Assembly (NCBI GenBank): GCA_030247885.1
Contig: JAPDRO010000014.1
Coordinates: 558,001-622,000 of the forward strand
Source: Taxawa tesnikishii (nom. ined.)
Lineage: Eukaryota > Ascomycota > Dothideomycetes > Dothideales
Reading direction: 5' to 3'
Length of the DNA: 64,000 bases
A program made the translations under genes and the position numbers. Position 1 is the first letter of the stretch. The number at the start of each line of letters is the position of its first letter. Shown here piece after piece: positions 926-63,714 of this stretch. The notes under the pieces are model-generated. The model ran no database searches and was not told the DNA's origin. It worked only from the letters and a program-made list of their open reading frames with translations.

Positions 926-3001
926 ATGGCGCCTGTCCATCCTCTCCGGATCTTGTCCTTCCAAGAGACCGAACAAGCCAAGCAGATTGTTCTTGAAAAC
1001 CATCCCAATGAAGTAATCGACTTCCGGGAGATCTACCTGCAAGAACCCGAGAAGGCAGAGTTGATCAAATTCCTCGACCTCGAGCACTCCGGCCGTCTTA
1101 CTCCCACAACCCCCGTCCCGCACGTCTTGCCAAATGCCAATACGATGTTATTGGCTCAGACAAGATTCCGTGTTTCCATGAAGCTATCGTCGATGTCAAC
1201 AGCAAGAAGAGGGTCAAGCACGAGGTCATTGGCAAAGAGCATCATGCCTCGCTGACACTGTGAGCCCTCCTTACCCAGTCTAGAACGTTCATGACTGACA
1301 CATCCTAGCGCGGAATTTGACGTTCTTGTGGAAGTGTGCAAAGCATCTCCCGAGTTCCAGAAAGCTATTTCGGAATTCACTCTCCCGGAAGGCTTTGAGG
1401 TTGTCATCGAGCCTTGGCCATACGGAGGTCTTGACCTCGAAGATGAGAACCGCCGCTACTTCCAGGGTCTTATCTTCGCTCAAGACACTAGGAACGGCAA
1501 CCCGGATTCCAACTTCTACGCTTTCCCATTGCCGCTCATTCCAGTCATGGATGCCCACAAGCGTGAAATCATCCGCATCGACCGCCTTGCAACTGGCGGC
1601 AAAGGAGACAATCTGACCGGCCAAACGCACAATACCAAGGTTTTGGAGCATTGCACGAACGCTGAGTACGTGCCGGAGTTGCTTCCCAACGGGACTAGGA
1701 AAGACCTTAAAACCCTGAATGTAGTTCAGCCTGATGGGCCTTCCTTCAAGGTCACAGATGAGTCTCTCGTTGAATGGCAGAAGTGGCGCTTCCGTGTCTC
1801 TTTCAACCCTCGCGAGGGTGCCGTCATCCACGACGTGCACTACGCCGGACGCAGCGTCTTCTACAGACTCGCAATAAGCGAGATGACCGTTCCATACGCC
1901 GACGCGAGGCCACCATTCCAGCGAAAGCAGGCTTTCGATTTCGGAGACGGAGGTGCAGGCAACTGTGCAAACAACCTCGCGCTTGGCTGCGATTGCCTTG
2001 GTGTGATCAAGTACTTCGACAGCGTCATCGTCGGCTCGAACAACGAGGTCAAGGAACACCCTAACGTCATTTGTCTGCACGAGCAGGACAACGGCATTGG
2101 TTGGAAGCACACCAACTGGCGGACCGGACGCGCCGTGGTCACACGGAGCAGAGAGCTAGTCGTCCAATTCATCATCACTCTTGCCAACTACGAGTATATC
2201 TTCGCCTACAAGTTCGACCAATCCGGCGGTATTGACATCGAGACGCGCGCGACCGGCATCGTCAGTTGCGTGAACATCGACCCCGGCAAAACCAGCGACT
2301 ACGGCAACGTCGTCAACCCGGGCGTCCTCGCGCAAAACCACCAACACATCTTCGCCGTCCGTATCGACCCCGCCATCGATGGTCATGCCAACACCGTGAT
2401 CCAGGAAGAATCACACCGCGTACCTATGAACCCAAAGACCAACCCCAAGGGTAACTTCTACGAGGTCCGTCAAACGCCCATCACGACATCGCAGTGGGCG
2501 GATGCCGCGCCTCAACACAATCGCATCTTCAAGATCGTCAACAGGTCGAAGAAGAACCGCATCAGCGGCAAGCCCGTGGGTTACAAACTCACGCCCCCGG
2601 CCACACAGCTACTCCTCGCAGACCCGGAATCCGTGCAAGCGCAGCGTGCCGCGTTCGCCCAGCACCATCTTTGGGTGACAAAGTACAAAGACGACGAACT
2701 GTACGCCGGCGGACGCTTCACTCTACAATCCACCAAAGAGGTCGACGGTGTTGCGGACGCCGTTGCCAGGAAAGACAACGTTGAGGATGATGATGTCGTC
2801 GTCTGGTCTGTCTTCGGGCTTACGCATAACCCAAGGGTGGAGGACTGGCCGGTCATGCCGGTAGAAATACATCAGATCCATCTGAGGCCGACGGATTTCT
2901 TTGAGCAGAACCCGAGCATTGATGTCCCGAGTAGTAAAAACATGGCTAGTCAGGAGGTGCCAAAGGGGTCGTGCTGCAATGGGGGCGACAGCAAGCTGTG
3001 A
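926..3001 (+). CDS. Copper amine oxidase, peroxisomal (primary-amine oxidase)
   Basis: Oxidative deamination of primary amines to aldehyde, ammonia and H2O2, using copper and a topaquinone made from a tyrosine. Exon 1 is 926-1259, the intron 1260-1308 (GTGAGC...TAG), exon 2 1309-3001; about 675 residues, normal for fungal members. The topaquinone motif is in LANYEYIFAYKF (Tyr of NYE), copper ligands are in the HQH of NHQHIFAV and the His of GLTHNPRVEDWP. The protein ends in SKL, a canonical PTS1 peroxisomal signal, as in methylamine/benzylamine oxidases of fungi. Exon 1 changes frame at the C5 run 1110-1114: LTPTTP must be followed by RPARLAKCQYDVIG, which lies one base out of register, so one C appears to be missing. 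Otherwise the gene looks whole. Identification is firm; substrate preference cannot be read. Confidence 0.93.
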
Positions 3002-3716
3002 GGTTGGGTTGATTTGCAGAAAAACTATTTCCTGTGAGATGAGAGGAGTTGGATATGACTGATGTCGAGTTTGATATACCCTAAATTGTATATGACATTT
3101 CCATGCCTCTTGATGCGTGCCTGTGCGCGATTGCGGTTGGGATACTATGTGTTTTGTCCGCCCTCTGCTTCCATTGTACACTGCACGACACTCACACAAC
3201 TTGGTTAAGAAACACATATGGTTGCATACGTTGTCACAATGGTGGACTGGAAAGTTTCTGCCATATTGCTGACGCCTCGGGTCTGTCAGCAACAGGGACG
3301 GGGATCTCGCTGCGCGCCGTGGGCGGTCTTGACGAACAGACGTAAACATCAACGGTTGCGATATACAAGATGCGGCTATCTGCGGCCCACAATGACCATC
3401 TTCCTTGAGAATCGACCAATCGAGTTATGTTGTACCAGTCACTGTGCGGGATAAGGGAGACTGGAGTGGTGGTGGCAACGGAACGCTGTGCAAGTCAAAA
3501 GCGGACTGTTTCCGTGGCTGGCCAGGCTAGACCAGGCCCTTCATCACTACCGACCTTGATGCGACCATACACTTGAACCATCGTATCCCCTACTAGATGG
3601 GTCGTCTCATCATCTCTTGAGCTAAATTCATCAATCCTACTGTCTTTGGTACAATAGCATCATACGGATACGCCCTGTATTTCCAACAATTGGTCGTTTC
3701 GTATATTCAATTCGCC
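3002..3716. other. Intergenic: amine oxidase 3' end and permease promoter
   Basis: About 700 bp between two genes on the same strand. Short readings on both strands overlap without family resemblance. I see no repeat or RNA gene. Confidence 0.5.
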
Positions 3717-5479
3717 ATGGCCGAGTCCTCAGCCCAGGGAGCAGGTCTCCAACAAATTTCCACGAACAAGTCTACAAGCAAAGGAGGCAGCAATGCGGCC
3801 GATGTCGAGATCCCTCTGCAGAAGATGGTGTCAGAGAGAATTGGTCAGACCGAAGAGCTGAGGCGAGAGTTTTCCGTCTGGTCCTTGGGATCTCTGCTCG
3901 TGTGTCTTATGGCGACATGGGAGGCTCTTTCGACAGTCGTCGCACAGGCGTTGATCAATGGAGGACCGCCGTGTCTGTTTTACAACTAGTGAGTAAGGGG
4001 GATGGAGAATGGCGAGGTCCGGGGCTGACACCGTGGGTAACAGCATCATCTCTTTCCTTGGAACACTCGCGATTGCTGCTTCAATGGCGGAGATTGCATC
4101 CGTGTGGCCAACTGCTGGAGGTAAACGACAACCTACACTAGGCCGAGATCTGCGCTGGCGCTAACACATATGTTCAGGACAATACCACTGGGTCGCCTGT
4201 CTCGCTCCATCCCACACCAGAGCCGTCGCCTCCTGGTTCACCGGCTGGATCTCCATCGGCGGACAGCTCGTACTGACCGCATCAGCAGCCTTCTCCGCCG
4301 GTCTCCAGCTCCAGGCACTCATTACTCTCAACGATCCTAGCTACACGCCGCAGAGATGGCAGGGTCTACTGTTCTATTGGCTGGTCCTGGCATATGCGCT
4401 GGCTGTCAATATCTGGGGTTCGCGCATCCTCCCTACAACCAATTTGGTCTCGGGCGTGCTGCATATTGTCGGCTTTGTGGTTATTGTGATCACGCTCGGT
4501 GTCATGGCTGAACCGAAACATACTGGACACTACGTCTTCGTTGAGTTCAGTAACACAAGTGGTTGGAGCTCCAATGGCATTTCGTGGCTTGTCGGGCTGC
4601 TGTCGACTGTGTATCCTTTCCTGGGCTACGACGCTGCTGCACATGTAAGTGATCTCCCACTTGTCCACGTGGTTGCTCCTAACACTGACCTCTCCAGTTA
4701 GCAGAAGAACTCCCACATCCCGCTCGCTACGTCCCGCTCGCCATGGTCGGCTCCATCGTCGTCAACGGGGTCATTGGACTGATTTATTGTATCATCCTCC
4801 TCTTCTGCCTCGGCGACCTCGACACCCTCCTCACAACACCGACCGGCTTCCCCTTCATGCAACTCTTTCTGAATGTCACCAACAGCCCTGCCGCAGCCAC
4901 AATCTTCACTCTCATCATCTCGCTCATCGCCACCGCCGCAAATGCCGCGGGCCTCACCTCCACCAGCCGAACCGCGTGGTCCTTCGCGCGCGACAGGGCA
5001 CTGCCCTGGAGCGGATACTTTGCGCACATAAGTCCTACCCTGCAGGTTCCAGTACGAATGTGCCTTCTGTTGACAGTCCTGCAAGCGCTGCTGGGATTGA
5101 TCTATGTCGGCAACACGACAGCTTTCAACGCCATCCTATCCATGGCCATTCTGGGTATGTACGCTTCATACGTCTTGCCCGTGGCGTACATGGTACTGTT
5201 CGGACGGAGTACTTCCTCTGCACAACGTATTCAGTCCTTTGGTCCGTTCCGTCTCGGTCGCTGGGGGCGACGATTAACTGCGTGGCCATTGTGTGGTGTT
5301 TGATTGCGATGTTGTTCAGTATGTTCCCGAACTATCAGCCGGTGAATGCTCAGAACATGAACTACAGCTCGGTGGTTCTCGGCGGCTGGATCGTGGGCGG
5401 AGCGCTATATTACTTTCTCCATCAGAGGAACGTGTATGAGGGACCGCTGATTATGGGTACGGACGAAACATCGGATTAG
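3717..5479 (+). CDS. Amino-acid/GABA permease, APC superfamily
   Basis: Plasma-membrane or vacuolar transporter of the fungal GABA/choline/amino-acid permease group (APC superfamily). Exons 3717-3988, 4044-4120, 4178-4644 and 4698-5479; introns 55, 57 and 53 bp with GT-AG ends; about 532 residues. The polar N-terminus is followed by RREFSVWSLGSLLVCLMATW (first membrane segment), the family segment ASMAEIASVWPTAGGQYHW, and the loop LGYDAAAHLAEELPHPARYVP, which is spread over the third intron exactly as expected. About twelve hydrophobic segments can be seen. The frame breaks at the G5 run 5263-5267: FRLGRWG should continue ATINCVAIVW, one base out of register, so a G is probably missing. The substrate is uncertain: GABA, choline and polyamine carriers share these motifs. 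Confidence 0.92.
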
Positions 5480-6802
5480 ACGACCAGGTACAAGATAGTC
5501 CAGCTCAGATAACACAGGCATCTTGAAAACAGTTCGACTGATCGCCCAATAATCGGGCCTGTGGCACGGCCGCTTGAATTAGTGGGGAGAAGGAGATCCA
5601 GAGAGTCTATATGTTTCGCCGTTACGATTGGAAACGAGAGAATGACCCCTTCTTTCCGGTCCCGTCCAAGGTTCTTAGTCCGTTCTCCAGAAGAATGCCA
5701 AGCGTCCTGACTGACTGCTTATGAGCAGGAATGTTGCGCGGATTGTCGGATTATCGGCCATCGCCATGCCCATCCCAGTAATCTGAGGCCCGATGGGAAC
5801 TTTTATCTCACACTTCGTCCATGTTGGCTTGGACATCAGGGAACAATCCTCGCATACTTGCTAGTTCGTCTACCCGTGCTCTCAGAGTTTCGTGATCACC
5901 TGCAAGTTCATCGATCGCGACAATGTCCGGCTGAAGGAATATATCGCACATGGCCAACGATGAACGATGGTCTTCCCAGAGACGTTCGCCATGGGAGAAG
6001 TGACTGAGCAGATACATGCTCATGATGTCTTTCTCGATGGGCGCACTTGTAGCACGGTGTGCAGTCCCACGACAACGGAGGAGACTGCAGGAGAGTGGTA
6101 GTGGTACTGAGCTGCGACAACGGAATTGTATCAGATAGTGGTTCGGATCTAACCGGCTCACTACATAGATTACTAAGCCTAGAGGGGAAATGAACCGCCT
6201 TCTTCGACAAGACTTGTGGCATGCTTCCACCCACCTCTGCACCTCGACTCAACGTGTGCGAGAGGGGGCGGAGTGCTGTCGGGCATGTGCGTCTCTAGGT
6301 TCTATGAGTCTTCAGGCACGTGCCAAGGACAGCTTCTGTTTAACCGGCGGATCTGTACACTTCAAGCCACATACAGATTTATGCAGCCAATCAAAAGTCA
6401 GATCCACACACCAGTAGCGCGGCGGCGACCATGGTCTGGAAGATCCTCAGCTACAAGAGAAATACCTTAACAACCCACCTTCCGGAACTAGACACTGGTA
6501 TCCAGTCCCGTGCACCTTCGAACTCATGTCCAGACGACGCCCAAACGGCACGGCCGAGCAGTATACCTCTTCGAAGCTTGGACTTGGCGAATGAGGTTGC
6601 TGCAAGAAGCCATGTCCACACTGGTAGCATTTTTTGTGGCTGACGGATACGGCACGACTTCTGTAGGACGCGCGGTGCGTATAGCTGGATGTAAGTCGAG
6701 AGTTCAACCCTTTCGGTACAGAAGCAGCATGGCTCCTTCAAAAGCATCTTCATTGTTCCCTCGACCTTTTCGTTTGTTCAGCACCCGCTCTCGTTCTTGA
6801 CA
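5480..6802. other. Long intergenic stretch with a possible minus-strand exon
   Basis: About 1.3 kb. The minus-strand reading 5808-6060 (about 80 residues from APIEKDIMSMYLLSHFSHGE to MDEV) looks protein-like: regular alternation of charged and hydrophobic residues and a natural stop at 5808. No family was recognised and no clear upstream exon was found. It could be the 3' exon of a small hypothetical gene or a relic. The rest, including the glucanase promoter, shows nothing I can name. Confidence 0.3.
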
Positions 6803-8563
6803 ATGTTTTTCCATACCCGAATTTTGAGCATCAGCTCTGCCGTTCTTTCGATCCTGTCATCTTGTGTCTACGCCACCACCTACAATTACGTTCTCCAAGA
6901 CGTCTATGCAGGCAACAGCTTCTACAACAACTTCAACTTCTACACCGGCTCTGACCCTACTCATGGATTTGTCCAGTACCTAGACGAAACCACAGCAACT
7001 AGCAGCGGTCTCATCGGCTTCGGCCAAGGTACTGCCAAGTGGGAGTCGACAACACGACCGTATACGCCACCAGCTCAAGCGGTCGTCCTTCAGTACGCCT
7101 TGAGGGAAAAACAAACTACAACGACGGTCTCTTCCTGGTCGATATCAAACACATGCCGGGCTCCATCTGCGGCGTTTGGCCCGCCTTTTGGACTGTCGGA
7201 GATGGTACCTGGCCCGCTCACGGCGAGATCGATATCATCGAAGGCGTGAATCTGCAAACCAGTAATTCTATTTCCGCTCACACTGCTCTCAACTGCACTA
7301 TGTCTTTTCCCGATCAGACTGGCACGGTACTCACGACCGACTGTGCTTATGGTAGTGGGAATTCGGCTGGCTGTGGAGTCAAGCCATCTATTGCGGGCGA
7401 CTACGGTACCAGCTTCAACTCGAACGGCGGCGGTGTTTATGCTATGCAGTGGACCTCGGATTTCATCAAAATATGGTTCTTTCCACGTGGATCCGTCCCT
7501 TCGTCAATCACCTCCGGTGCGCCTGATGTCAGCACCTTTGGTACTCCAGCGGTCAACTTTGACGATAGCGGCTGTGACATCCCTACCCACTTCGTCAACC
7601 ATCGGATCGTATTCGATACGACCTTTTGCGGAGACTGGGCTGGATCCGTTTACTCGTCATCGGGTTGCCCTTCAGCCTCAAGCGGTGCGAGTGGGTACGT
7701 GTTTCCATCATCCTGCGATCTGGAAGTCTTTTACTGACTTTACTCAGATGTATTAGCTACGTGGCAAACAATCCGACAGCTTTCTCGGAAGCTTACTGGG
7801 AGGTGAACTACATCAAAGTCTACGAAGACTCAAGTTCAGCATCGGCGACGTCTGCTTCGTCTCCCGCTCCTTACACCACTTCGTCCGCTGCCTCACCTGC
7901 TACTCCGTCTGCAACCCTTTCACAAGCATCAACACCATCTGCGACCTCAACATCGCCGGCTGCTTCTTCTTCTTCTTCTTCTTCTTCTCCTACGACGACC
8001 TCGAGCACTGTTCGCTCAAGCTTGGTATCGCCAAGCTCAACAAGCGTCTCGTCCAGGACTTCAAGCACGGCCAGTATTCGCTCAACGTCATCCTCCGTTA
8101 TTCCCAGCACGAAGGCGACCACGACCTCAACAACCCCCAGTAGTAATTTGGTTCGTCCACAAGCAAAACCTCGTCGTCAGCCAAAAGCAGCAGCACCTCC
8201 AGTACGTTTACAACCGTCACCCGCACAAGCAGCAGCAGCAGCACGGTAAAATCCTCGACGAAAACTTCCGCCTCCGCCGCCAGCACGCCCACGACTACCA
8301 CGGCCAGCTGCCCCTCGGATAATGGCAAGATCTATGTCTCGAACTCGAAACGTTTCCTCCTCGAATGTTCTACAGACCACGCGGCTGGTAACCTGAAAAT
8401 GGTCTACGTTAGCGGCGGTCTAGCCTCATGTATCTCCCAATGCGCCAGCACGAGCGGGTGTGTGGATGTTTCTCTATCCGGGACGGCGTGTTACATGAAG
8501 TCGTCGCTCGGGACGTCGACGACTTCGAGTTCGGTAAATGGGGCGAGGTTGTTGACGTCTTGA
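6803..8563 (+). CDS. Secreted GH16 endo-beta-1,3(4)-glucanase with Ser/Thr linker and C-terminal Cys module
   Basis: Extracellular beta-glucan hydrolase. The signal peptide is about residues 1-24, ending VYA. The GH16 domain (about 25-325) carries the catalytic motif GEIDIIEGVN (nucleophile E, helper D, acid/base E) and the flanking PAFWTVG. Intron 7695-7756 splits GASGYVANNP. A long Ser/Thr tract follows (about 330-480), then a C-terminal module of about 60 residues with spaced cysteines (ASCPSDNG, FLLECSTDH, ASCISQC, GCVDV, TACYM) that resembles a PAN/Apple fold. Such tails may bind carbohydrate or the wall. Two one-base frame breaks: near 7037-7040 (GTAK then VGVDNTT) and near 8148-8151 (PSSNL then GSSTSK). 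Each is mended by one extra G. About 566 residues. No GPI signal is visible at the end (NGARLLTS). Confidence 0.9.
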
Positions 8564-9840: not shown

Positions 9841-10521
9841 TCAGAACGCCAATTTGTATCCTGTAACCCCTGTCATAATAAACAGCCCGAATTGGAACAA
9901 CCACATCGGACTTCCCGCCAATCTTCCCTTTCCATTCTCCTTGTCCTTTGCCGTGTATCCAAGCGCATACACTACTCTTGAGACGCTCCAACCCAGCCCC
10001 ATCAACGTAGTAACGACCGGGTATCTGATTCCGCCAATGAGCATGGCGGCGATAACGGACGAGTGGTTCTCGAGGTAGTTTGCGTGCGCGCGCTGGGCGC
10101 AGTTGAACAGGTACATGTTCTTCTTGAGCTCCGGATCGGCGGAGGACATGTTGTACGAATCGGCGTAGGGGCTGGGTAAGTGACTTGAGGCCCGGCGGCC
10201 TTGCGGAATGCAGAGACGCGCACGCCGTGCCAGGTACTAAGGAAGAAGGTACCGGCTACGGTGAGGATGACATAGCTGGTGAGGATGGTTAGTGGAGGGG
10301 TCTAAGGTGGGCTTGCTGTTCTTCGTTCTTCGTATTCTGGCCCGGAGTGCAGCTGGAGCGCCGTTTTGCGCAAAGCAGCTATCGTGTTCGTCGAGACAAA
10401 ACAAAGTCTTTCGCTTGATGGCGGTACTGGGAGCTGGCAGGATTGGGGTCGATGAAATATAGGAATGTAGACTCGAATAGACGTACCCGTACTCGGGAGG
10501 AACAGTGAGAGTGAGCGACAT
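9841..10521 (-). CDS. MAPEG-family microsomal glutathione S-transferase-like protein
   Basis: Small four-helix membrane protein of the MAPEG superfamily (MGST3-like), expected in the ER or mitochondrial outer membrane and acting in glutathione-dependent peroxide or lipid detoxification. Exon 1 is 10487-10521 (MSLTLTVPPEY), the intron 10276-10486 (GTACGT...CAG, long for this window), exon 2 9841-10275. Family marks are FRKAAG, LFNCAQRAHANYLEN (the central MAPEG signature with N-C-AQRAH-N-E) and GIRYP. About 156 residues, the usual size. The frame breaks at the G4 run 10168-10171 (C4 on the coding strand): YPAP should be followed by YADSYNMSS, so one base appears missing. Family assignment is strong; the reaction is inferred from the family only. 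Confidence 0.88.
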
Positions 10522-13927: not shown

Positions 13928-15956
13928 ATGTCCGACGCAGACTCTGACGGGTCTTACGAGCCGTTTCTGCTCGTGGGTGCAACTTCGCTCAGGAGAGATG
14001 CTCGAGCCAATGCTAATCACTCCGTTCCTGCAGGACCTGCCACTGACTACAGTTCCACCGTTGCACATTGGATACGCGATCGAAAACCTCCACACAAAGC
14101 AACTCGCGGCTTCGAAGCGGAGCGACCAAGCCCAAGCTATGTGGTCGACGTGAGTATTTTGATATGGACACTTTGAGACACGCGATCCGTCGTTGACCAG
14201 CCTCAGATGTTACCTCCTGCTGCGCGCAAAGGACATGCTGTTGATAGCATACCTGCGAAATACTTGCATTCCTCAACAAACAAGATCAGGCACCCTGTGA
14301 ATGTAGTAAGATGGACGCCGGAGGGAAGACGTCTGCTCACTGGCTCGACGAGCGGAGAATTCACACTATGGAACGGAACCGGTTTCAACTTCGAGACGAT
14401 TATGCAGGTGCGTAACGTAACTCGTTCTCCTCCTATTTCTTACTCTGGATCCACGTTAACAACAGGTAGGCTCACGACAGTGCCGTACGAGCCGCAGCAT
14501 GGTCACACAGCGACGACTGGCTCATCTCTGCAGAGCAAGCCGGCATCATCAAGTACTGGCAGCCCAATTTCAACAACGTAAAATCTATTCAAGCGCATAC
14601 CGATCCCGTTAGAGACGTTGCCTTTGCTCCTACAGACGTGAAGTTTGTCACGGCTGCCGATGACGCGACCCTCAAGATCTTCGACTTCGCTGGCGGAGTA
14701 GAAGAGTCTGTACTCACTGGCCATCAGTGGGACGCAAAATGTGTGGATTGGCATCCGACCAAGGGACTGCTAGTGTCTGGGTCAAAGGATCACCAGATCA
14801 AGCTCTGGGACCCGCGAACCGGACGCTGTCTCACCACTTTACACGGACACAAGAACACAGTCAGCAAGACGCTTTTCGAACCGAAGAATGGAAACTTGCT
14901 AGCCTCATGCGCGCGAGACCAAACCGCCAGAATCTTTGATATCCGTATGATGCGCGACGTCTTCCTACTACGCGGACACGAGAAGGACATCAGCACGATT
15001 GTCTGGCACCCTTTCCATGGATCATTGCTGACGACTGGTGGCTCTGATGGCTCAATGCATCACTATCTTTTGGACGAGCAGAACCTACCCGCCGGTACAG
15101 CACCCACGCTTTCACCATACGACGTACCTGAAAATTCAGATATGCCTGCACAGACCATCTACCCGGCTCACCGCGTCCCATTTGCGCACGACTTCGCTAT
15201 ATGGAGCCTTGACTGGCACCCACTAGGCCACATTCTGGTCTCCGGTTCGAATGACCGTGCGACACGCTTTTGGACCCGACCAAGGCCAGGCGAGACTGCT
15301 TACAAAACCGACAAATGGCACGTCGGCCAAGACAAGGCGGGTAATAAGGAATGGGGCAGGGACCGAGCTAGAGAAGAGGAACAGCAAGAGGAGGAGGACG
15401 AGGCAGAAGGACTTGTGGATCAGCAAATGCCGTCAAAGCAGTCAATCCTTCCAGGACTACCAGGCCTTGCCGCATCCATGCCCGCGTTTCCAGACGGTAC
15501 CAGTACCGGTGGCGCGCAAACGATGCCCGGCATGCCCGGCTTTGGCGGTGTCAACATTCCCGTGCCTCCACCGCAGGCTGGACCGCCGATTCCGCCAGCT
15601 CTTCCTCCAGGTGTGGATCTGAGTAAATTAAAGGACATGTTCGGAGGCCAGCTTCCCATCCCACCCCCAATACCCGGCTTTCCTGGTGCTCCCCGCCGCC
15701 AATTCCTGGTATGCTGCCGCAGGGTCTCCCACAAGGATTACCACAAGGCCTTCCTCAGGGCCTGCCGCAAGGATTTCCACCGATGCCGGGCTTCCCTCCT
15801 ATGCCTGGCTTTCCTGGGATGCTTGGTGCGAATGATGCGGCGCAACAGCAGGACCAATCGAACGGTGCGGGTGGAAGAAGGAGGGTGCCGCTGCCGAGTC
15901 AGCACGAGAGTTTGCAGGAGGAGATGAGGAGGGGCAAGTATCAGCGACCGCGGTAG
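13928..15956 (+). CDS. pfs2: Polyadenylation factor subunit Pfs2 (WD40)
   Basis: WD40 scaffold of the cleavage and polyadenylation complex (WDR33 homologue), acting in the nucleus in mRNA 3'-end formation. Exons 13928-14149, 14207-14407 and 14470-15956; introns 57 and 62 bp. About 636 residues. N-terminal [20 protein letters not shown] begins a run of about seven WD repeats, e.g. [35 protein letters not shown] and [14 protein letters not shown]. The tail is Pro/Gly/Met-rich with a GLPQ tandem repeat and ends [20 protein letters not shown], the conserved Pfs2 C-terminus. That tail lies one base out of register after the C4 run 15691-15694 (PGFPGAP then [11 protein letters not shown]), so a C is probably missing. 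The 3' end was duplicated just downstream. Confidence 0.94.
15711..15790 (+). repeat. 12-bp tandem repeat coding for GLPQ units in Pfs2
   Basis: Five near-identical units encode LPQG repeats, then two PPMPGF units. It is a coding minisatellite in the proline-rich tail and likely varies in length between strains. Confidence 0.8.
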
Positions 15957-16015
15957 TGTCGTTCGTCGTCAAGGACTCGAAAGAGCATCATCCGAACAGC
16001 AGGTTCGGTCGCAGA

Positions 16016-17770: not shown

Positions 17771-17916
17771 AAAGGTCGGCTAAAAGTTATGAGGACTGGT
17801 GGTTGGGAGACGCGAAGCGTCAGAAATTCATTCTGCATGAATGGCACGGATGGGAGGGCACGAGTATACGAATGACGATTGATGACCTTTATAAGGTACG
17901 ATGGTTTACATGGAGA

Positions 17917-19053
17917 CTACTGCGTGTAATACTCTACAACACCATCGCCGTACCACTTCCGACCGACGTCCGGATGGGACCTGATCCATTTGCGCAGCTG
18001 AGATTCGCCAAGGCTATCCCATCTAGGATCCAAGAAGCTTGAAGTCTGGCTTTCGGCACTACCATCGGTATCTATCCGAAGGTTACGGACGTGTTCTGGG
18101 ATATACGCCCGAATCTCCGACACCGTCATATCGAGCGGCAGGCCCTGGAAGAATGGAATCGAATACCGCGGAGCGGATGAAGAGATTGGCGCCTATTGCC
18201 ATCAGCACATCATCCGCTAACTGTCCTCACTCTTGCTCTATAAATCGCAGTGGAGATCGGATCGAAGGGAGCGTATACCTTCACCCTATGCACGGTAGCT
18301 TTCACAGCACCCTCGGTAGCCGCCTCAAACGCATTTCCGAAGTTGACTACGAAAGTATCTCTAACGGGGGCGCGGCGATCCAGTCACCCGTCGTGTTCAA
18401 CACTTCCAGCCCTTCCTCCTCGCCAACTTGGTACAAAAAGGTTAGCCATCCGCTTGAGTCCTTGTGCGCGCCTACACCCTGTCCGCGGTCTGAGGCGTTG
18501 TTGACGGAGGTGTTTGGAGGATATTTGACCAGTTTGATGCGATGTTGAGGCGGCATCCAAGATGCAGACGCATGCTGGTCGCTGCCACCCCTGGCGCTCC
18601 CGCTGGTGCGGAAGAAGTCATCGAATGTTCCAGTCGGAATATCGAAGGCTTCTTCGATCAGATGGACGAAGCGGTAGGAGAGCGCTTGTACAGCGTCATG
18701 GTAGCTGGAAAAGGTTCATTCTCTCGCAGATCCTGTTTTCCGAGGGTGGTCTCTTCTGCGAACCCGCTGTAGCCTAGGAAGTGCGGGGAGTTCAGCTTGC
18801 TCAGCGCATTCTTCTGTTTATCGGGTAGATCGAACAAGGAGGGCAGAAGAGAGGCAAGATCAGAGATGTAGGAGGAGGGTACCCCGTGGTTCTTGATGTA
18901 GAGGAAGCCGACGTTGAACAAGGCATCGTGTAGTTGTTTGAGTAGTAGAGGCTTTTTAGAGGTAGATGAGGCCCATGAGAGATCTATGATGGGAAGGGCA
19001 GAGAAGGATACTTCTTCATTGTCCATGGCTTGCCATTTGATGGTGGTCGTCAT
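17917..19053 (-). CDS. 2-oxoglutarate/Fe(II) oxygenase, isopenicillin-N-synthase-like, with internal gap
   Basis: Oxidoreductase with a non-haem iron. N-terminal DIOX_N part FNVGFLYIKNHGVPSSYISD; core with iron ligands His and Asp in GAHKDSSGWLTFLYQ, distal His in GAVKATVHRVK and the 2-oxoglutarate Arg in RYSIPFFQG. Intron 18193-18278. Two defects. At the G5 run 18366-18370 the frame slips by one base (DWIAAPP then VRDTFVVNFGN), like many genes here. More seriously, near 18713-18722 the text jumps from GKQDLREN to FSSYHDAVQALSYRF: about 35 codons that join these parts in relatives are absent and the frame changes. That is a real deletion or an assembly collapse. If real, the gene is probably dead. 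Relatives act in secondary metabolism or leucoanthocyanidin-like reactions; the substrate is unknown. Confidence 0.82.
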
Positions 19054-20848: not shown

Positions 20849-22085
20849 AGATGCCGTTGGGAAGGAGGCTGAGACTGCTTCAGGGCGTTTTCGGACAGGG
20901 GCAGGCCAGGGTTTTCCCTGAGCGTGAGTAAGGTTTCGAACTCTCTTTGGGAACAACGATCATGCACGAGGCGTTCGGGTTCCAGTTGGTTTGAGACCAG
21001 ACTCGAATGGAGGGGTACTCTGGCGGGGGATCATGACTTATCGCGGTATACCAGAAATGCTTCTCACTCGTAACATCAGGTCGAATTTTTATGAACCCCC
21101 TAGTCGTACTTCCTACCCCGACTGTGTTACTAGCTCGTGAGAAGCACACTATACCGTGTATCCTGATGAGTGGTTCTGACCACTCTATTTCTCACCGCTT
21201 CTATTAACCCGGTTCGTTCGGGCATGCACACAGTTCCCTTGTCTCCCATTTCCTCTTGCTGCAATAGACCCTGGAGAATGCGGAGGCGCCACGGCTGGGA
21301 GTGGCAGCCTTGAACGCTGCTTCCCCTGTGGAAACGCATGGGCTGCAGTCTCAACGGAAAGGATCAGCATTATGCTAGCCCGCAAAGGGAAAGGCTTGGA
21401 GATCGTATTAAAACAGAATTTTGAAGGGGTTCGTGACATACCGAACGGATCAACTCGCGGAGGTATCTCTATACCAGCACATACCAACTGGTGAGCAGCA
21501 AGAACACTGCTGAGCGCAGTATGAGTCAGTGAGATCAGCAATCCAGAGGTATCGGAGCCGGTCATCTAAGACAGCCATCACACGCCCGTGGCAGGCTGCA
21601 CCGTCATGTTAGGAATCAGCACGGCGCCGTTTCAAGCCGCATACTCGACGGCATCGGTCAAAGCGCAGACACAGAGAGAGCAAGGGAGCCGTATAACTGA
21701 TCAATACAGCCCCAGAGCGGCGGCGTTGCCGCGTTTCTGACAGTTGCAGAAGCAAAGTTCCAAAACTTGAGCATAAAAACGTCGGTACGAGATTCGTGTT
21801 GATGGAAGCAAGGACTCCCTCGGCTCCGTGATGAAGGTAGAAAACTTCTCTGCTGCGGTTAATGAGATCCTAGGCTGGGGCAGAAGACGCTTCTGATGTC
21901 TAAAGCCATCAGCTCACTGCTGGTCTTGTATGGAGCCCGCGGTTCCCAGAGGTTCGACAGATGAAGTTAAGACCTTCGAAAAAGCGCATCGTCTGCCTCC
22001 ACTAAAGGTAGATGGGTATCTAGTATGCAAGGAATGAACAAACCGCAACCATGTAACGTGGAAAATAGACCAGGCTGGTTTGGTA
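20849..22085. other. Convergent intergenic region, possible minus-strand small gene
   Basis: About 1.2 kb. On the minus strand, 21565 down to about 21442 encodes a plausible N-terminus (MTGSDTSGLLISLTHTALSS) followed by a good donor (GTATGT), and 20880-21149 holds another protein-like stretch (FWYTAISHDPPPEYPSIRVW). They could be exons of one unrecognised gene of 150-200 residues, but I cannot connect them confidently. The 21600-21900 part shows nothing. Confidence 0.3.
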
Positions 22086-41862: not shown

Positions 41863-41867
41863 GTCCC

Positions 41868-43063: not shown

Positions 43064-43096
<33 letters not shown>

Positions 43097-43276
43097 CCAG
43101 TCCCTCCACTTGTGAGCGCATCGCGAGTGTGAGTCCAGATCTCACCGCCCTGCACTCATTACGTTACCACGAGTAGACGTTGACCCCGCTCATCAGCACA
43201 CCACGCCTGCCTTGTTCGCTGTCACAACGTGCAATCCATCTCCAGTCCTACGTCTGCCAGCTCGAACACCGCCAAA
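42459..43276. other. Divergent intergenic region with CAG repeat
   Basis: About 800 bp upstream of Snx41 and of the minus hypothetical gene. It contains AT-rich patches (gcaatatatatatcgtac near 42850; ctatatatatatc near 42940) and the CAG tract listed separately. No coding gene. Confidence 0.45.
43065..43094. repeat. (AGC)10 microsatellite upstream of Snx41
   Basis: About ten perfect AGC units, roughly 180 bp before the Snx41 start, probably in its 5' UTR or promoter. Confidence 0.9.
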
Positions 43277-46331: not shown

Positions 46332-47901
46332 ATGCGTACCACTTTCCTTTGTCTGACCTGCTTCTGCGGTCTCGCTGCCGTCTTGATTTACTTGACCTCA
46401 GCAAAATTCCCTACATTCCCATCCCATCACCGCTCCGTGCACAGTCTTTGGTCCGGCGACGATGCGAAAGCTACGCCCGAACCCGTTCACGTGCCTGTAC
46501 CCTCGGTGAAGGACGACGAAGCGAGGGGCTCCACGCATGCCGAATGGCAATTCGACTACGCTCGAGATGCGCGCAACTACGGTCTCAGCCATGAGCAGTG
46601 TTCCAGCGCGTTCCCTCTACTCTACAAAGAAATCGACCGCGCGGTCGAGCACAGGCGGGGAAACAAGATCGACGTCTCAGAAGTGGATACAGCATGGCGA
46701 GGCGACGGAATCGTACGCGCCATGATCTACAAAAACCAGGTCAGCCACATCTTCCCCCCCCCCCCCCCAATCTCCAATATCGCCGCAGGTAACTGAACCC
46801 CCTTTTCCCCTTTCAGCTGTATATCATTGAGAATCGCGGCGTGTGGGACGGCAACCACCGCCCTCGCTCCATCGCTACGCTACACGCGCTCCACCGCGCC
46901 ATCACCGCCTACTCCGGCCCCCTCCCGAACATCGAGTTCACCATCACGGACCACGACAGCGCCTACTTTGGCGAAAATACGCACCAGACCACCTGGGCCT
47001 ACGCTCGCCTCCCCTCCTCCTCGAACCTCTGGCTCATGCCGGACTTTGGATACTGGGGCTGGCCGGACGTCGGACTGCGCTCGTACGCCGAACTGGCAAG
47101 CCTCGTGCAGGAGGATGAGGAGGGGAGGCAGAATTCGCGGACAAGAAGCCGCAACTGGTGTGGCGGGGCAGCGTGGACGTCGCGGCGCGGGACGTACGCG
47201 CGAAGCTGCTGCAGCACAGCTCGGACAAGGGCTGGAGCGACGTGCGCGCGCTGGACTGGCGCAACGAGACCGACATCAAGGCGCACCTGCTGGGCATGGA
47301 GGAGCACTGCGCGTACATGTTCGTGGCGCAGACGGAGGGGAACACCTACTCCGGCCGCCTCAAGTTCCTGCTCAACTGCCGCAGCGTGCTGGTGAGCCAT
47401 CGGCTGGAGTGGGTCGAGCACTTCCATCACCTGCTCCGCCCCGATGGCCCCGAGAGGAACTACGCCCTGGTCAAGCGCGACTTTTCGGATCTCGATGCCA
47501 CCATCTCGAGCTTATTGAGCCCCAAGGGACTGAGGGAGGCGGAACGCATCGCGGAGAATGCGAGGAAGGTGTTCAGAGAGAGGTACCTGACGCCCGCTGC
47601 CGAGGCGTGCTACTGGCGTAAGTTGATCCAGGGGTGGAGCGAGGTGCAGGGATTCGAGACCGAGTTCTGGAAAGAGGTCGAGGTGGAAAGGCTTGGGCGG
47701 AAGAAGGCGGTGAGGAAGCCGAGAGGCGTGCCCTTTGAGGCTTATGTGTAAGTGTGGGAGAGATTTTGAAGCCTGTGGTTGAAAACCGGGGGTCAAGACG
47801 GGGAGAAGAAAGAAAAAACGCTAACGAGAGAACGCAGGATCATGGAGGCTGTGGGTTGGGAGATTCCCACCAAGCCGCGCAAGATTTGCGAGTACGAGTG
47901 A
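46332..47901 (+). CDS. GT90 (CAP10-like) glycosyltransferase, type II membrane protein
   Basis: Golgi glycosyltransferase of the CAP10/GT90 family (xylosyl- or glucosyl-transfer to fungal glycans). Exons 46332-46739, 46817-47747 and 47838-47901; introns 77 and 90 bp; about 467 residues. One N-terminal signal anchor (FLCLTCFCGLAAVLIYLTSA), a stem, then the catalytic domain: NKIDVSEVDTAWRGDGIVRA, FTITDHDSAYFGENTHQTTW, LMPDFGYWGWPDVG, LVWRGSVDV, and FVAQTEGNTYSGRLKFLLNC (the conserved GxSxSxRxK/LLxC region, here with GNTYSGRLKFLL). A small last exon adds IMEAVGWEIPTKPRKICEYE. The frame breaks at the G4 run 47122-47125 (QEDEEG then EAEFADKKPQ), one G short. Intron 1 carries a C15 tract. Confidence 0.9.
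46754..46768 (+). repeat. C15 homopolymer in GT90 intron 1
   Basis: Fifteen consecutive C between the donor and the polypyrimidine end of the intron. It may act as part of the pyrimidine tract. Confidence 0.9.
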
Positions 47902-49797: not shown

Positions 49798-52312
49798 TCA
49801 AGGCGGTGGTAGCATGCGCAAGGGCACATTCTCAGGCCTGTTCGCCAAGACGTCCTCCCTTGTAGCATGCTCATCCCAATCTGCATCATTGCACACCTTG
49901 ATCCTCAACTCCAGAACCCACGCTTTTAGGACTGGCTCGCCCAGCCCTCGCAGGACTTCTGACATGTCAAACAGAGAACCGCGTCCATTGTCCGCGATGA
50001 GAAACCTCCATTGGTCCAAAGGTAGATATCCGAACAGGTCCGGTATGCGACCTGCCAACTTTCTCTTGTACCTGGGCGTCGTTTCGTCGCTCCCTCTGGG
50101 GTCGAGACTTGCGATTGCAAGAGCGACGAGGCAGAGAAGTAGGACGAGGCAGTTCAGGACGATGTATGCGATCAGGGTGGCACGTCCGACGTGGACCTCA
50201 TACCGAAGCCGTCCGAGCTCAACTCTGGCATCAGGCTCCTCTGCAGCTACGCTTTGGAGGGAAGCCGGATCCAGTCCCAGGAGACGCATTGCTTCGCGCA
50301 TTGCTGCTGATCCGATGTCTCCGTTCTCTCCGACACCGGAAGAGTTAGTGGGTATGTCCAAGCCGAGATTGGCTCCTGACAGTGCCCCTCTTGCAACCAT
50401 GGTCTTCTGGCAGTAAAATATCGGGATCGCGAGAAGATTCTGCAGGGCGTCGACACCATAAGCTTGCACTGAGTTTTCCCCTAACGCGGCAGCGGTGTGA
50501 AGCGTGCCGTAGAATACAAGAGGGAAGGTTGGTGGGCTGCTGCCCATCTGTCCAGAGCCGCTGAAAATGCTCTCGAGAAGAGAAGACGATGAAAGATCAG
50601 AATTTGAGGAGGTGTTGATCAAGGGTAGCAAAGAGTTGAACATGGGCAAAAGGAAGGAAAGATACGAAGTGTCGGTCTGTGAGCCTGAGGCGGGAACAGT
50701 GGAGGCACGCTTGGTTTCCAGATCTCCCGAGTCCATGAGGGAGTCAATGATGCCGGAGATAGCAGCCATATCGTCGCTTGATGCACCCGCAGTCTCAGAC
50801 GCACTGCTGCCCAATAGGCTATTCGCGGAGGTGTTGCCTATGAATGATTCCAGAGCTGGACTGAGCAGCTTGATGGTACTGCTTGTGCCTTCGAAGAGGG
50901 AATCATATGCGTTGAGAAGCTCCGTAGCCTTGATGGTAATTGGTTCCTCTACCGCAGTGGTGAACGTGTGTGAGATGATCGTCCAGTTTTGGCGGCTGTA
51001 CACAACATCTGCGGGACGAAATGTCGTGGCCAATGTAGTGTTCCATGCTATCCTTGGGTGCTCGTACCAACTGGTGTTGCTACGGCATTGCATTTTCGTA
51101 ATTAGTTCCTTGGGGCAAAGGGTGGTCCCTGTCGTGGGATGTCAGCTAGAGCCAGAGTTGCGCTCGGAAGTAGCTTACAAGCATTAAGTGTACCATTTTC
51201 ATCATTCGTGACACATAACCTGAAAGCCATAACCCCGAGGTCAGGACCGTATGTTCGACAGCTGCTGTTCCTAAACGTCCAGTGGCCTTGCCCTCGTGCA
51301 TAGCGCATATAATAGCCTCGTTGATTGCGAGAAATCATTACGTCAGCCTCAGGATGACCTGACCGTAGCACCATGCTACTTTCAGGAGGGCCAGCAAGGT
51401 AGACATCCCTTCCGCATAACTGTCCGTCTCGTACGTTCATTCCTCGAGAGCAAGGATCATTGCGTTCCTTTGGTGGGGTAACATCCACGGCTCGAAAAGG
51501 ATTATTGAGGAAGTTATCGAATTCCATACCACTGAACATGTGATCTGTGGAAGGAGCCCAAACGGGAGCCATTGTGGCATCGAAACGACTCATGCCGCTG
51601 CCGTAAGGAGCAGTCCACCTATCCACAGTAGAATAAGCAGGGTCCGCCTGAACGTCGCCTACAAAACGCGTCAGTGGGGTCTTCGGGTGCGATGGGGAAC
51701 TTATCGCGTACTCATGATCAATACACTCAGAATGACGCTCAGCAGCGTTGTGAGGAGTCTGAGTGTTGCCCACAGTCTTGCGGAAATGATTTTTGCCTTT
51801 GTGAAGGCCACAATTTTCAGCAATCCCAAAGGACCAGTTCCCGGATGAAGTGCGAGAAGATCAGCCAGGCGCAACCCCTTTTCCTAGAGGCAAGAAGCCA
51901 CTGTACACGTTCGAAAACTGCAACGCAGGTGGCGCGGAGGAGAAGCTCAGTGATGGCGGAAAGGATGCGGAGAACACGGATGGTGTGCGAGACAGAACCG
52001 CTAAAATAGTCGTAGTCGGAAGCGAAAGTATCTCGCGTAGCATAGATGACGGTCAAAGAAAAAGAAGCACCGTCAGAATGAATGTAAGCCATGTCAGGGA
52101 CAGCTGTTTGGCAGGCGCGAGAGCCCTAGAAATGTAGCGAGTGCAGCTGGCGATCCTGCCGACTCCCTTTCGAACGCGTCTCTGACGGTAGTAAGCATTG
52201 TCATAGCTGCATGAGTCGAAAGAAAAGGTACGAACACAGCCCAAACGTATGGGGAGTCAGGACTATATATGAATGTGCCAAAGTCTATATCGTAGAGTGA
52301 CGAGAGCTGCGC
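49798..52312 (-). CDS. Large fungal membrane protein of unknown function
   Basis: Unrecognised, but clearly one spliced gene. Exons about 51712-52312, 51179-51658 and 49798-51128; introns 53 and 50 bp. N-terminal part: GTFIYSPDSPYVWAVFVPFL, then a membrane helix (LTWLTFILTVLLFLLTVIYA). Next come LRILSAITELLLRATCVAVF and a second helical block with LLTTLLSVILSVLIMS. A large probably extracytoplasmic domain follows with paired Cys (SRGMNVRDGQLCGRDVYLAG, NSSCRTYG) and several N-glycosylation sites (NTT, NWT, NTS). The last helix is ATLIAYIVLNCLVLLLCLVA, then a cytosolic tail. About 805 residues. Three one-base breaks (51875-51878, 52055-52057, 52097-52099), all missing bases. The first exon or start codon is unresolved: upstream of 52312 the frame meets a stop with no ATG. 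Confidence 0.7.
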
Positions 52313-53554
52313 CTCGCGGCCATTATCTCACCAGACTAGGCTGTGTAAGCCCAGAAAACGGGCCTGTTTTCCAATGCGGGTCTCGGCCGAGCGCGGTGTC
52401 GTGGAAAGGCTGAGGTGCCTGGCGCTTTCTTGAAAGGCACCTGTCAGTATACATAGTGCGGGGTTGCTCTATAGTTACCTGACTGGTAGGCTTGGCGGCG
52501 AAGCAATTGGCCTTTCTAAACCTTACAGTAGTCCCATCATGGAACGACTAGGAAAGGAGTTTCCATACGTCGAAAATGCCTCAAACGCCTCCAGGAGGCC
52601 GCCAAGTGAGGGGCTCTCCCTCCGCATGGTCCGTTTGGCTGGAAAAGAGCGTATGCGTGTTTCATGTGTCCGAAGGGATTGCGCGTCTCAGGACCGTTTG
52701 GGATGATGGTAGCTCGTACTCTCAAGCACGGCGGATGTCTAGCCGAACAGTTGTTTGTTGCAAGGCAACGAAGACATTTCAAAGCTGCTGGAACCGACTA
52801 TGGATCTTAGAAACTTGGCCGTTCTGTTGCCCTCTGTATTAGAACTGCCCCTAACCTCGCAGGGGAGTCAACGATAGAGTAACCAGGAACTCTACGCAGG
52901 AATGATTTCGACTTGCAATAGTAATCTGCCATGATTGTGAACGCTACCTATGTCTCCCGGGAATCCGTAATGGTCACTGTTGCAGACATCTTTGGCACAC
53001 GTGCGTCGAGCGAAGTGGTTCAGAATGACGGTGACGCACACTTGCACTCCATTCGCTAGGGTTTCTGCCGTCTCTCCAGCCTCACTTTGGCAGTTCTTGG
53101 ATGCGTGACCTTCGTGAGTGATATGAAGTAGAGGTTGCCTGAAGATGCCTGGCTGCGCGTTCCGAGAGCCGTTTGCATGGGGTCTCACGTCTGGTCGCCG
53201 GCCATGATGTCCTCATGCGGGTTCGCTGGGTTCGTAGTGTGGGAGGATAGGACATGTTTTGAAGCCATGGCAGCTTTGCGACGGTCATCTGAAGATCCAT
53301 GGTGAATTTGGATGTACGGAAAACAAGTTGGGTGACTTAATTCGCCGAAATGATTGTTTGAACGTCCGTATAGATAGGAGTGAAGTTGGAAAGAGAGAGC
53401 CGCGAAAGCATCGATATAAACTCTAGTCTTGGCGGTCCCTCAAATGCGTTCTCCAAAGATTTCCAAAGCGAAGCGCGGACAGCCAAACGAAATTCCACCA
53501 CCACACCTTTCTCCGTTTCTCTCTCTCTCTGGTACCCATATAGAATCTTCCGTC
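52313..53554. promoter_or_regulatory. Divergent region upstream of CCT8 and the membrane protein
   Basis: About 1.2 kb. It must hold the CCT8 promoter and probably the missing first exon of the membrane-protein gene. CT-rich just before CCT8 (tttctctctctctctgg). No other gene recognised. Confidence 0.45.
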
Positions 53555-55453
53555 ATGTCCTTGTCAATACCGAATGCCCCCAACAGCGGGCTGTTTAAGC
53601 CTGGCTACCAAAAGTGAGCCTCTACCGCCCCCGCCGCCTACAACAGCAGCACCACCACTTCCTCCACATAGTAACTGACGAACCTCAGCTACGATGCCGA
53701 AGACGGCGCCGTCATCCGCAACATCGACGCCTGCCGCACCATTGCCAACACCGTGCAGACCTCCTTGGGCCCCTACGGACGGAACAAGATCGTGATCAAC
53801 CACCTGCAAAAGATGATCTTGACCTCTGACGCGGCAACGATATTACGAGAGCTCGATGTCGTGCACCCGGCGGCCAAGCTGCTGGTTATGGCGAGTCAAC
53901 AGCAGGAGGCAGAGATGGGGGACGCCACGAACTTGGTGATAGTGTTGGCAGGCGAGCTGCTGAAGAAGGCCGAGGAGCTGCTGAGGATGGGTCTGAAGAC
54001 GAGCGATATCGTGAAGGGGTATGAGAGGGCACAGGGGAGGCGTTGAGGGCGCTGGAAGGTACGGGATAACACTTTACACTACAAGTCGGGACGGCTGGGG
54101 TTAAGGTGATTGAAGGCATGCTGACACTGTACAGATCTGGAGGTCGACAAGGTGGAGGACATGCGCGACCCCAAAGCGCTTTCCAAGGCCCTCCGCACCG
54201 TCATCGCAGCCAAGCAGAACGGACAGGAAGACATTCTGGCCGACATGGTGGCCGAAGCCGTTCTGGCCGTGCTGCCCAAGAACGCATACAACTTCAACGT
54301 GGACAATATCCGCGTCGTCAAGATCATGGGCGGTAGCTTGGAACAATCCCGCGTGATCAAGGGTATGGTCTTCGGACGCGTACCATCGGGCAGCGTGACC
54401 AAGGCCACAAAGGCCAAAGTCGGTGTTTTCAGCTGCCCTATTGATATTTCTCAGACCGAAACCAAGGGCACCGTTCTCCTGCACAATGCCAAGGAGATGC
54501 TGGATTTCACCAAGGGTGAGGAAGCACAGATCGAGGCCGCGGTCAAGGAGCTCCACGACAGCGGCATGCGCGTCGTCGTCGCCGGATCCACCGTCGGCGA
54601 GCTCGCGCTCCACTACCTGAACCGCTTCGGCCTGCTCGTCATCAAAGTGCAATCGAAGTTCGAGCTGCGACGACTGTGCCGCGTGGTGGGCGCGACGCCG
54701 CTCGCGCGTCTCGGTGCCCCGATGCCCGACGAGATGGGCAGCGTTGACGTTGTCGAGACCACCGAGATTGGCGGTGACCGTGTGACCGTGTTCAGACAGG
54801 AGAACGAGGTGACTCGTACAGCAACGCTAGTACTGCGGGGCGCGACTCAGAACCACCTAGACGACGTCGAGCGCGCGGTCGACGACGGCGTCAACGTAGT
54901 GAAGGCGATCACGCGCGACGCGCGCCTAGTCGCCGGCGCAGGAGCGGCGGAGATGGCGCTCGTGGAGCGCATCAGCGCGTTCGCGGACAAGACGCCCGGA
55001 CTGGCGCAATACGCGATCAGGAAGTACGCGGAGGCATTCGAGGTGATACCGCGCACGTTGGCAGAGAGCGCGGGGTTGGATGCCACAGAAGTGCTCGCGC
55101 GTCTGTACACCGCCCACAGCAGCTCCTTGAACCCGCACTCCGTTTCCACCACCGCGAAGCCCTCCTCCTCCGCCAACGGCAAGGTCCAAGACGCGGAAGA
55201 GAGCTCAGAGGAGGAGGACGACGAGGACGACGTCTGCACCACGGGCGTGGACGTGGACAACAACGAAGACGACGGCGTGCTGGACGCCGCCGAGCACGGA
55301 ATCCTGGATCTCTTGGTGAGCAAGCAATGGGCCATCAAGCTCGCGACCGAGGCCGCGAGAACGGTCTTGAGCGTCGATCAAATCATCGTTGCCAGGCAGG
55401 CCGGCGGGCCGAAACCACCAGGGCCGAACCCGAACTGGGATGAGGATGACTGA
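53555..55453 (+). CDS. cct8: CCT8, theta subunit of the TRiC/CCT chaperonin
   Basis: Subunit of the cytosolic group II chaperonin folding actin, tubulin and WD40 proteins. Exons 53555-53613, 53689-54058 and 54135-55453; introns 75 and 76 bp; about 582 residues. Marks: LFKPGYQNYDAEDGAVIRNI, ATP site TSLGPYGRNKIVINHLQK and the GDATN loop (GDGTT position); KIMGGSLEQSRVIKGMVF; ATLVLRGATQNHLDDVERAV with DDGVNVVKAITRDARLVAGA; LLVSKQWAIKLATEAARTVL; theta-typical end GPKPPGPNPNWDEDD. A Ser then Glu/Asp-rich insert (about residues 475-525, SSEEEDDEDDVCTTG) sits where relatives have a short loop. The frame breaks at the G4 run 54034-54037 (GYERAQG then EALRALE), one base short. Essential in yeast, so an assembly error is likely. 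Confidence 0.95.
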
Positions 55454-60676: not shown

Positions 60677-62100
60677 ATGCTGCGTCTTCTACCCTTCTCT
60701 CTCTTTACTCTTCTGGCCTCCACCACCGCAGTGCCGTACTCTTCCTGGCCCAACAAACCCTTCGTTACGGACGGAAGGTACATCAAGGATGCGTCCAACA
60801 CCACAGTCACGTACGCAGGCGTCAACTGGCCCGGTGCCGCCGATGTCATGATTCCGGAGGGTCTGCAATACCAGTCCGTCTCTACCATTGTCTCCAAGAT
60901 CAAAAGCCTAGGCATGAACGTGATCCGCTTGACCTATGCCATCGAGATGATTGACGACATCTACAACGGAGCGGATTCATCGCTTCAGAATGCTTTGATG
61001 ATAGCACTTGGCCCGGCCAACGGTACCGAGGTCCTAAACCAGATCCTGGCAAAAACCCATCCTTCACCGCGAATACGACGAGACTCGAGGTACGTTGTGC
61101 GCGCATCCCGATGCAGTCACGAGGCATTAGCTCATGACGGCCGCTTTAGGTTTTCGATGCAGTCGCTGCCGAGTGCTACAAACAGCAAATCTACGTTCAT
61201 TTGGACAACCACGTGTCGAAGGCAATCTGGTGTTGCAGCAACACCGATGGAAATGCTTGGTTCGGCGGTAGGTCGACCCTCCCTCAACGACGCCCTGTCG
61301 CTTTGCTCATACTTCTTCCCCAGACACCTACTTCAATGTCACGAACTGGAGGCGCGGTCTAGCATACATGGCAGCTCATGGCAAGAACTGACCAGCCCTG
61401 ACATCCATGTCTCTCCGAAACGAGCTCCGAGAACCCAAGGATAACTCAACCGTTGACGCCACCTACAACTGGCCTACGTGGTACTCGAACATCGCCCTGC
61501 GGCGAATGGCATCAACGCCGCGAACCCGGATCCGTTGATCTTCCTCTCAGGTCTGAACTTCGACACCACCCTAGCTCCCATAACCGCCGGCACAGATCTC
61601 GGTAACGGGACTAGATTCAGGCTTTGCGACTTCCCGTACGCCGACAAGCTCGTTTTCGAGCTGCACGATTACCAGAACAGTGCGAGCTCGTGCTCGGCGA
61701 TCACGCCGGGCTTGTACAGCGGCGGATACAACGCCATGGACACGAGCAGCAACACGACCGCGGCGAACACTGCGCCCGTTGTCTTGACTGAGTTCGGGTT
61801 CGCGCAGGACAACTCAACCTACTTGCTGCCCTATTCGCAATGCATCAAGTCGTATCTGACGCAATTTCCCGGAGGGCCGGGTGGGTGGATGCAGTGGGTG
61901 ATTGCGGGCAGTTACTACATTCGCGAGGGAACCCAGGACTTTGAGGAGACTTGGGGTGAGCATTGTTCTTTCGCCCCTTGTGTGGTTTGACAAAAGCTCA
62001 CATTGCGCCAGGTTTGTTGTCTCACGACTGGTCGAGCTGGCGTTCGCCTGTTGCTGTGAGCAATTACACGAAGCCCTTTGTGGACGAGACTCTCCACTGA
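60677..62100 (+). CDS. Secreted GH5 glycoside hydrolase, with in-frame TGA
   Basis: Extracellular beta-glycanase of family GH5 (cellulase/endoglucanase fold). Exons 60677-61089, 61150-61267, 61324-61955 and 62012-62100; introns 60, 56 and 56 bp; about 417 residues. Signal peptide MLRLLPFSLFTLLASTTA. Marks: TYAGVNWPGAADVMIPEG, MNVIRLTYAIEM, IYVHLDNHVSKAIWCC, acid/base Glu in MSLRNELREP, nucleophile Glu in PVVLTEFGFAQD, WMQWVIAGSYYIREG. Two one-base breaks: the A5 run 61051-61055 (NQILAK then NPSFTANTT) and 61495-61497 (WYSNIA then AANGINAANPDP). A TGA at 61389-61391 lies where Trp is expected (AHGKN, stop, PALTSMSLRNE). That is a substitution-type lesion, unlike the others, so this gene could be a true pseudogene. 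Confidence 0.88.
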
Positions 62101-63271: not shown

Positions 63272-63664
63272 TTACGCCTTCTTCGCACCAGTAGCGCTCT
63301 CAACATTCTCCTGCGCACTCTTCGTCGTGCTCTGAACCCCCTGTCCAACATCCCCCAGTGTCTTCCCGACCCCTCCCGCCACATTCCCCACCACTCCGCC
63401 CAGCTGTGTCGCGTTCTCGTTAGCCAACAAATGCTCTTACTACTCACTCACTCACTCACTCGACGCAACTGGGCGTTTGGGAAAAGGGGAAAGAAGAAGA
63501 AGAAGAACCAGAAGAAGAAGAAGAAGAAGAAGAAGAAGAAGAAGAAGAAGAAAAATAACACATACCGTTCCGACCGTTCCTCCGACGAGGCTTCCGGCGG
63601 TTCCCGTGACGCCGCTGGCGACGTTGCCGGCGCCTGAGGCGAGGGAGCCGAAGAGGCCTTTTGT

Positions 63665-63695
<31 letters not shown>

Positions 63696-63714
63696 TGCTA
63701 TTGTTGTCGGACAT
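63272..63714 (-). CDS. Small Gln-then-Gly/Val-rich protein, hypothetical
   Basis: Exon 1 63566-63714, intron 63434-63565 (132 bp, GTATGT...GAG), exon 2 63272-63433; about 103 residues. A short poly-Gln N-terminus (MSDNNSNQEQ then Q run) leads into a repetitive Gly/Ala/Val/Thr stretch (GLFGSLASGAGNVASGVTGT, AGSLVGGTVGT), then QLGGVVGNVAGGVGKTLGDV and GVQSTTKSAQENVESATGAK. The amphipathic repeats resemble small LEA-like or hydrophilin stress proteins of fungi, an inference only. The frame slips by one at the T4 run 63659-63662 (A4 on the coding strand). The exact acceptor is uncertain. The intron contains the microsatellites below. Confidence 0.65.
63442..63461. repeat. (ACTC)n tetranucleotide repeat in intron
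   Basis: About five ACTC units near the acceptor end of the intron. Confidence 0.8.
63491..63555. repeat. (GAA)n microsatellite in intron
   Basis: About 20 GAA units with one cca interruption. On the coding strand it is a TTC pyrimidine tract inside the intron. Confidence 0.9.

Follow-up and report, generated by a model that had tools for sequence, protein, structure and literature searches.

Described errors at runs of a single base in nanopore data provide the closest comparison for the frame breaks studied here. According to PMC5889714, nanopore base callers limit such runs to 5 bp, and PMC8486125 describes nanopore errors at runs as mostly deletions. The sequence analysed here resembles the early nanopore base calls in the former account in that runs longer than five are scarce and truncation of runs has produced an excess of deletions. 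Unlike in those calls, the limit here is leaky and is strongest for G and C, and breaks also lie at runs of three to five letters as assembled. In nanopore-only genomes of Drechmeria coniospora, polishing added more insertions than deletions (PMC7500977); by contrast, the supported errors here are nearly all missing bases.

The window, i.e., the whole 64-kb stretch of DNA that was analysed (C6:558001-622000), belongs to a genome of 29.4 Mb in 34 contigs, with an overall GC content of ~53%. The Zn2Cys6 factor, the shortness of the introns, and the genes present make a filamentous ascomycete the most likely source. An original prediction listed 25 one-base frame breaks in 17 genes of this window. 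Three-frame translations around the listed sites were read by eye for coherent protein, and Pfam scans covered most gene regions of the forward strand, in its three frames, and three regions of the reverse strand, likewise in three frames, with stop codons treated as residues. The prediction held for 22 sites in 16 genes, where one coherent protein switches frame; at each of these, reading placed a minus-one step on the coding strand at or near the listed place. The hypothetical gene that holds the other three sites (51875, 52055, and 52097; gene at 51102..52200, strand not assigned) showed no recognisable protein on reading of either strand, and its forward strand gave no Pfam match. For six of the 22 breaks, in five genes, a Pfam profile runs on across frames with an overlap, or with a gap that leaves no room for an intron. 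The remaining 16 are based on coherent protein text in two frames, and most of the genes concerned carry a Pfam domain.

The prediction had also held that every break was a missing base. A coding test compared one missing with one extra base within 105 nt either side of each of the 22 sites (all listed sites except 51875, 52055, and 52097), leaving the starting frame free. A missing base came out ahead at 19 sites, and for 14 of these the margin was 5 nats or more. At 267 random coding positions used as a control, the test split evenly (49.8 per cent), and a preference of at least 5 nats arose for a missing base at none and for an extra base at one. The margins were weaker at five of the 19 sites: 63660 (3.8 nats), 8149 (1.6), 43682 (0.9), 44193 (0.4), and 61053 (0.1), with the best interval for the last two lying 80-100 nt off the listed run. 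An extra base was preferred at 15692 (1.2 nats), 22379 (2.4), and 29850 (5.2); the stretch tested at these sites contains or adjoins low-complexity sequence or a likely intron. At these eight sites, the sign was taken from reading or from Pfam.

Profile continuity is found in the following five genes. In the Atg3-like gene (PF03987; 19716..20848, forward strand), profile positions 79-115 are matched up to 20400, and positions 144-193 are matched from 20498 onward, two frame steps later. On its own, the profile yields just the sum of these steps; the net shift is consistent with a pair of minus-one steps in the interval 20383-20525, reading agrees, and a missing base is preferred by 6.6 and 13.8 nats. 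The OPT transporter gene (26703..28993, forward) matches its profile over positions 1-247 and then, one frame on, over 315-622, leaving a 191-nt gap for 67 profile positions and placing one minus-one step within ~27756-27785 (13.6 nats for a missing base). Profile positions 56-176 and 153-332 of the GT90 gene (46332..47901, forward) occur in two frames that overlap at 47128-47194, with one minus-one step within ~47120-47137 (10.4 nats for a missing base). A run of 15 C at 46754-46768, the only C run of at least six in the window, lies in or near a likely intron of this gene. On the reverse strand, the Rpp20/Pop7 gene (22080..22758) has two minus-one steps, at ~22378-22433 and ~22205-22216; its profile positions 2-36 and 35-107 lie in two frames overlapping at 22417-22426, in agreement with reading. 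Here the coding test preferred a missing base by 12.2 nats at 22212 and an extra base by 2.4 nats at 22379, the site of profile continuity, where Pfam indicates minus one. The 2OG-Fe(II) oxygenase gene (18276..18996, reverse) matches positions 9-57 and 50-86 in two frames with an overlap at 18359-18383, and one minus-one step was placed within ~18347-18383, for which the coding test was also used.

Among the other genes, the copper amine oxidase gene (926..3001, forward) carries the Pfam N2, N3, and enzyme domains, and a different frame is coherent between them, giving one minus-one step within ~1088-1153 (11.1 nats for a missing base); a 47-residue piece of this protein used as a query found no solved relative. 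The profile of the amino acid permease (3909..5479, forward) extends to position 382 of 427 and ends at 5226, and the next frame supplies a coherent C-terminus after one minus-one step within ~5256-5303 (6.5 nats for a missing base). In the MAPEG family gene (9841..10300, reverse), Pfam positions 36-127 of 129 lie in one frame and the N-terminus in another, with one minus-one step within ~10155-10178 (21.1 nats for a missing base). Reading located one minus-one step near 7040 and another near 8140 in a secreted GH16-like gene (6640..8563, forward), with 5.2 and 1.6 nats for a missing base; the label was given by eye, as Pfam gave no match to GH16. Likewise, reading placed two minus-one steps, at ~34230-34277 and ~34388-34450, in a gene on the reverse strand labelled F-box/WD40-like by eye (34024..36362; 10.7 and 10.4 nats for a missing base). 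The WD40 gene at 14207..16000 (forward; Pfs2 in the original prediction) has one minus-one step near 15690, based on Pfam WD40 matches and reading of its low-complexity tail; here the coding test favours an extra base by 1.2 nats. One minus-one step falls inside the zinc cluster, near 29850, of the Zn2Cys6 transcription factor gene (29821..31852, forward), based on reading and the Pfam Zn_clus and Fungal_trans domains; the stretch tested for sign includes a likely intron, and the test favours an extra base by 5.2 nats.

The PX/Vps5 sorting nexin gene (43055..45310, forward) has PX in one frame and Vps5 one step on, and together with reading this places one minus-one step near 43682 and another in the interval 44091-44219, with 0.9 and 0.4 nats for a missing base. 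In the CCT theta (CCT8) gene (53444..55453, forward), one minus-one step within ~54023-54058 directly precedes a likely 76-nt intron (54059-54134), and the frame runs into a TGA unless the step is made. The part downstream of the step matches TCP-1 subunit theta (4v81_H) over most of its length, and the step itself is based on an ab initio model, the coding test, and detailed reading. The GH5 gene (60677..62100, forward), with a Pfam Cellulase domain, was read as having minus-one steps near 61051 and within ~61467-61511 (0.1 and 19.2 nats for a missing base). It also contains an unlisted in-frame TGA at 61389-61391 amid otherwise coherent protein, a substitution-like lesion and not a frame break. 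Finally, a hypothetical gene on the reverse strand (63300..63870) has one minus-one step within ~63631-63672 by reading, with 3.8 nats for a missing base.

The ab initio frame model allowed introns and free missing or extra bases at equal cost for either sign. At middle cost, it called 7 missing and no extra bases in 32.3 kb of coding sequence in the window, and 15 missing and 6 extra in 118.1 kb elsewhere. The corresponding counts were 3 and 0 against 7 and 0 at strict cost, and 8 and 1 against 31 and 8 at loose cost. Of the 48 calls made at the loosest cost, a required margin of 4 or more left 4 in the window, all for a missing base, and 10 elsewhere, 9 for a missing base and 1 for an extra one. 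The model called no nonsense codons in its coding sequence. The model undercounts the breaks, and by its counts the window is not clearly apart from the rest of the genome. It was rejected as the main evidence, since several breaks were bridged by introns that homology contradicts and only the 7 calls at middle cost fell in the window; homology and the local sign test were therefore used instead. Missing-base calls at 7830 and 18659 correspond to no listed site and may be further or misplaced breaks. The prediction that seven to eight genes of the window are clean agrees with the model, which put no break in eight gene stretches (11130-12519, 16662-17770, 24221-25222, 37426-38798, 38996-41005, 49798-51093, 56785-58646, and 58814-59729).

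Outside the window, seven frame steps were found in six genes on contigs C1, C3, C6, C14, and C20, and all seven were minus one. The chaperonin profile table gave one in a CCT gene (C1, 528261-528264), and the HSP70 profile table gave one in an HSP70 gene (C3, 494622-494625). The others came from Pfam profiles in six stretches picked around better-supported missing-base calls of the ab initio model, a sample thereby selected for missing bases. Four of these stretches gave steps: two in an aspartyl protease and one in an aquaporin (both L023, C14), one in a biotin carboxylase (L025, C20), and one in a PRP21-like splicing factor (L019, C6), while the remaining two, L011 and L014, gave no Pfam match. 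Six of the seven steps leave no space for an intron. At the first step of the aspartyl protease, a gap of 92 nt stands against 18 profile positions, and the case for this step is made by the coding model (16.5 nats). In the Aldedh table, most matches span only part of the profile, for which introns or the capped scoring could account.

Run lengths were counted in 244 kb, made up of the window plus 18 of the 19 10-kb stretches sampled (L017, which is AT-rich, was left out), and compared with second- and third-order Markov models trained on the sampled DNA itself. G/C runs of at least six numbered 4, compared with 39 (second-order) or 31 (third-order) expected, and A/T runs of this length numbered 25, compared with 49 or 45. 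In non-coding DNA, for which the coding mask was our own model and intergenic and intron sequences were pooled, there were 72 G/C runs of five and 2 longer, a depletion as strong as in coding DNA, whereas A/T depletion was mild (107 runs of five and 20 longer). The limit at five is leaky, with 7 longer runs in the window and 30 in the 190 kb elsewhere. In 50 kb of E. coli K-12, a bacterial and not a fungal yardstick, a length of six was reached by 5 of 37 G/C and 63 of 192 A/T runs of at least five. A run of at least four lies in 13 of the 14 best-supported break intervals, compared with 4.3 expected, the intervals being centred on runs chosen in the original prediction. Among 47 matches to 5S rRNA, 44 were exactly 120 nt and one was 119 nt; these lengths speak against a high uniform error rate. 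An 18S fragment used as a query gave no match.

Taken together, we consider it very nearly certain that the breaks are assembly errors, from long reads (most likely Oxford Nanopore) with under-called runs and too little correction, and not biology. A long-read platform, most likely Oxford Nanopore, would under-call runs of one base, and the consensus would have been left uncorrected, or poorly corrected, by accurate reads; an under-called run in an exon would then lose one base and move the reading frame by minus one. Since under-calling is blind to gene function, essential and dispensable genes alike would be hit, and non-coding DNA would also lose its long runs. These results bear out the predicted cause, deletion-biased, homopolymer-linked assembly error, and the statement that essential genes are hit too, CCT8 and Pop7 being among the broken genes. 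The essential genes, the single direction, the several contigs, and the loss of non-coding G/C runs leave little room for biology. The frame steps with their sign, their occurrence on further contigs, and the scarcity of long runs are observed; we infer the platform, base caller, and missing polishing, for which nanopore sequencing without sufficient polishing is the most likely combination. The leaky limit at five and the mostly full-length 5S matches weaken the choice of platform more than they weaken the case for error.

It is highly improbable that some listed breaks are unrecognised short introns. The ab initio model did bridge several sites with introns, and the spacing between matches within a single HSP70 or CCT gene is often what introns of ~50-60 nt would produce; however, the six breaks with profile continuity leave no such room, and the model's permease intron (5157-5320) would remove part of the profile match, which extends to 5226. 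True mutations, in genes or a lineage decaying into pseudogenes, are less probable still. Frames are indeed broken in the given sequence, and the GH5 gene has its in-frame TGA. Decay would be expected to mix insertions, deletions, and nonsense codons and to spare essential genes, yet CCT8 and Pop7 are among the broken genes, nonsense codons are absent from the model's calls, and the steps run in one direction, unlike neutral decay; in addition, the chaperonin table appears to fit a single locus for each CCT subunit.

Insertional RNA editing or programmed ribosomal frameshifting could in principle restore the frames of truly short genomic runs, since every supported step calls for the addition of one base or a backward slip by one, and the proteins stay coherent. 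Such processes would be confined to transcribed or translated sequence, but G/C runs are equally short in non-coding DNA; moreover, the sites differ in base and surroundings, and no common slippery motif was seen. We regard this explanation as hardly credible, and equally so its specific form, in which the runs are truly short and the fungus repairs thousands of nuclear frames by adding bases to transcripts at runs. We know of no nuclear insertional editing system from any fungus.

The breaks are thus ordinary assembly error and no real biological feature, and they serve as a warning: until accurate reads have been used to correct this assembly, the gene models, intron calls, and numbers of pseudogenes derived from it are untrustworthy. 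Such breaks can be masked by gene finders as false introns, as happened with the ab initio model here. Two further features of the genome were observed. The sampled stretch L017 (C5:500001-510000) has a GC content of 26% and may be likened to the AT-rich repeat blocks that occur in some ascomycetes. The 5S rRNA matches, at least 47 in number (e.g., in L028 and L029), are dispersed over many contigs with scores of ~38 to 87 bits, a spread that suggests several sequence types.
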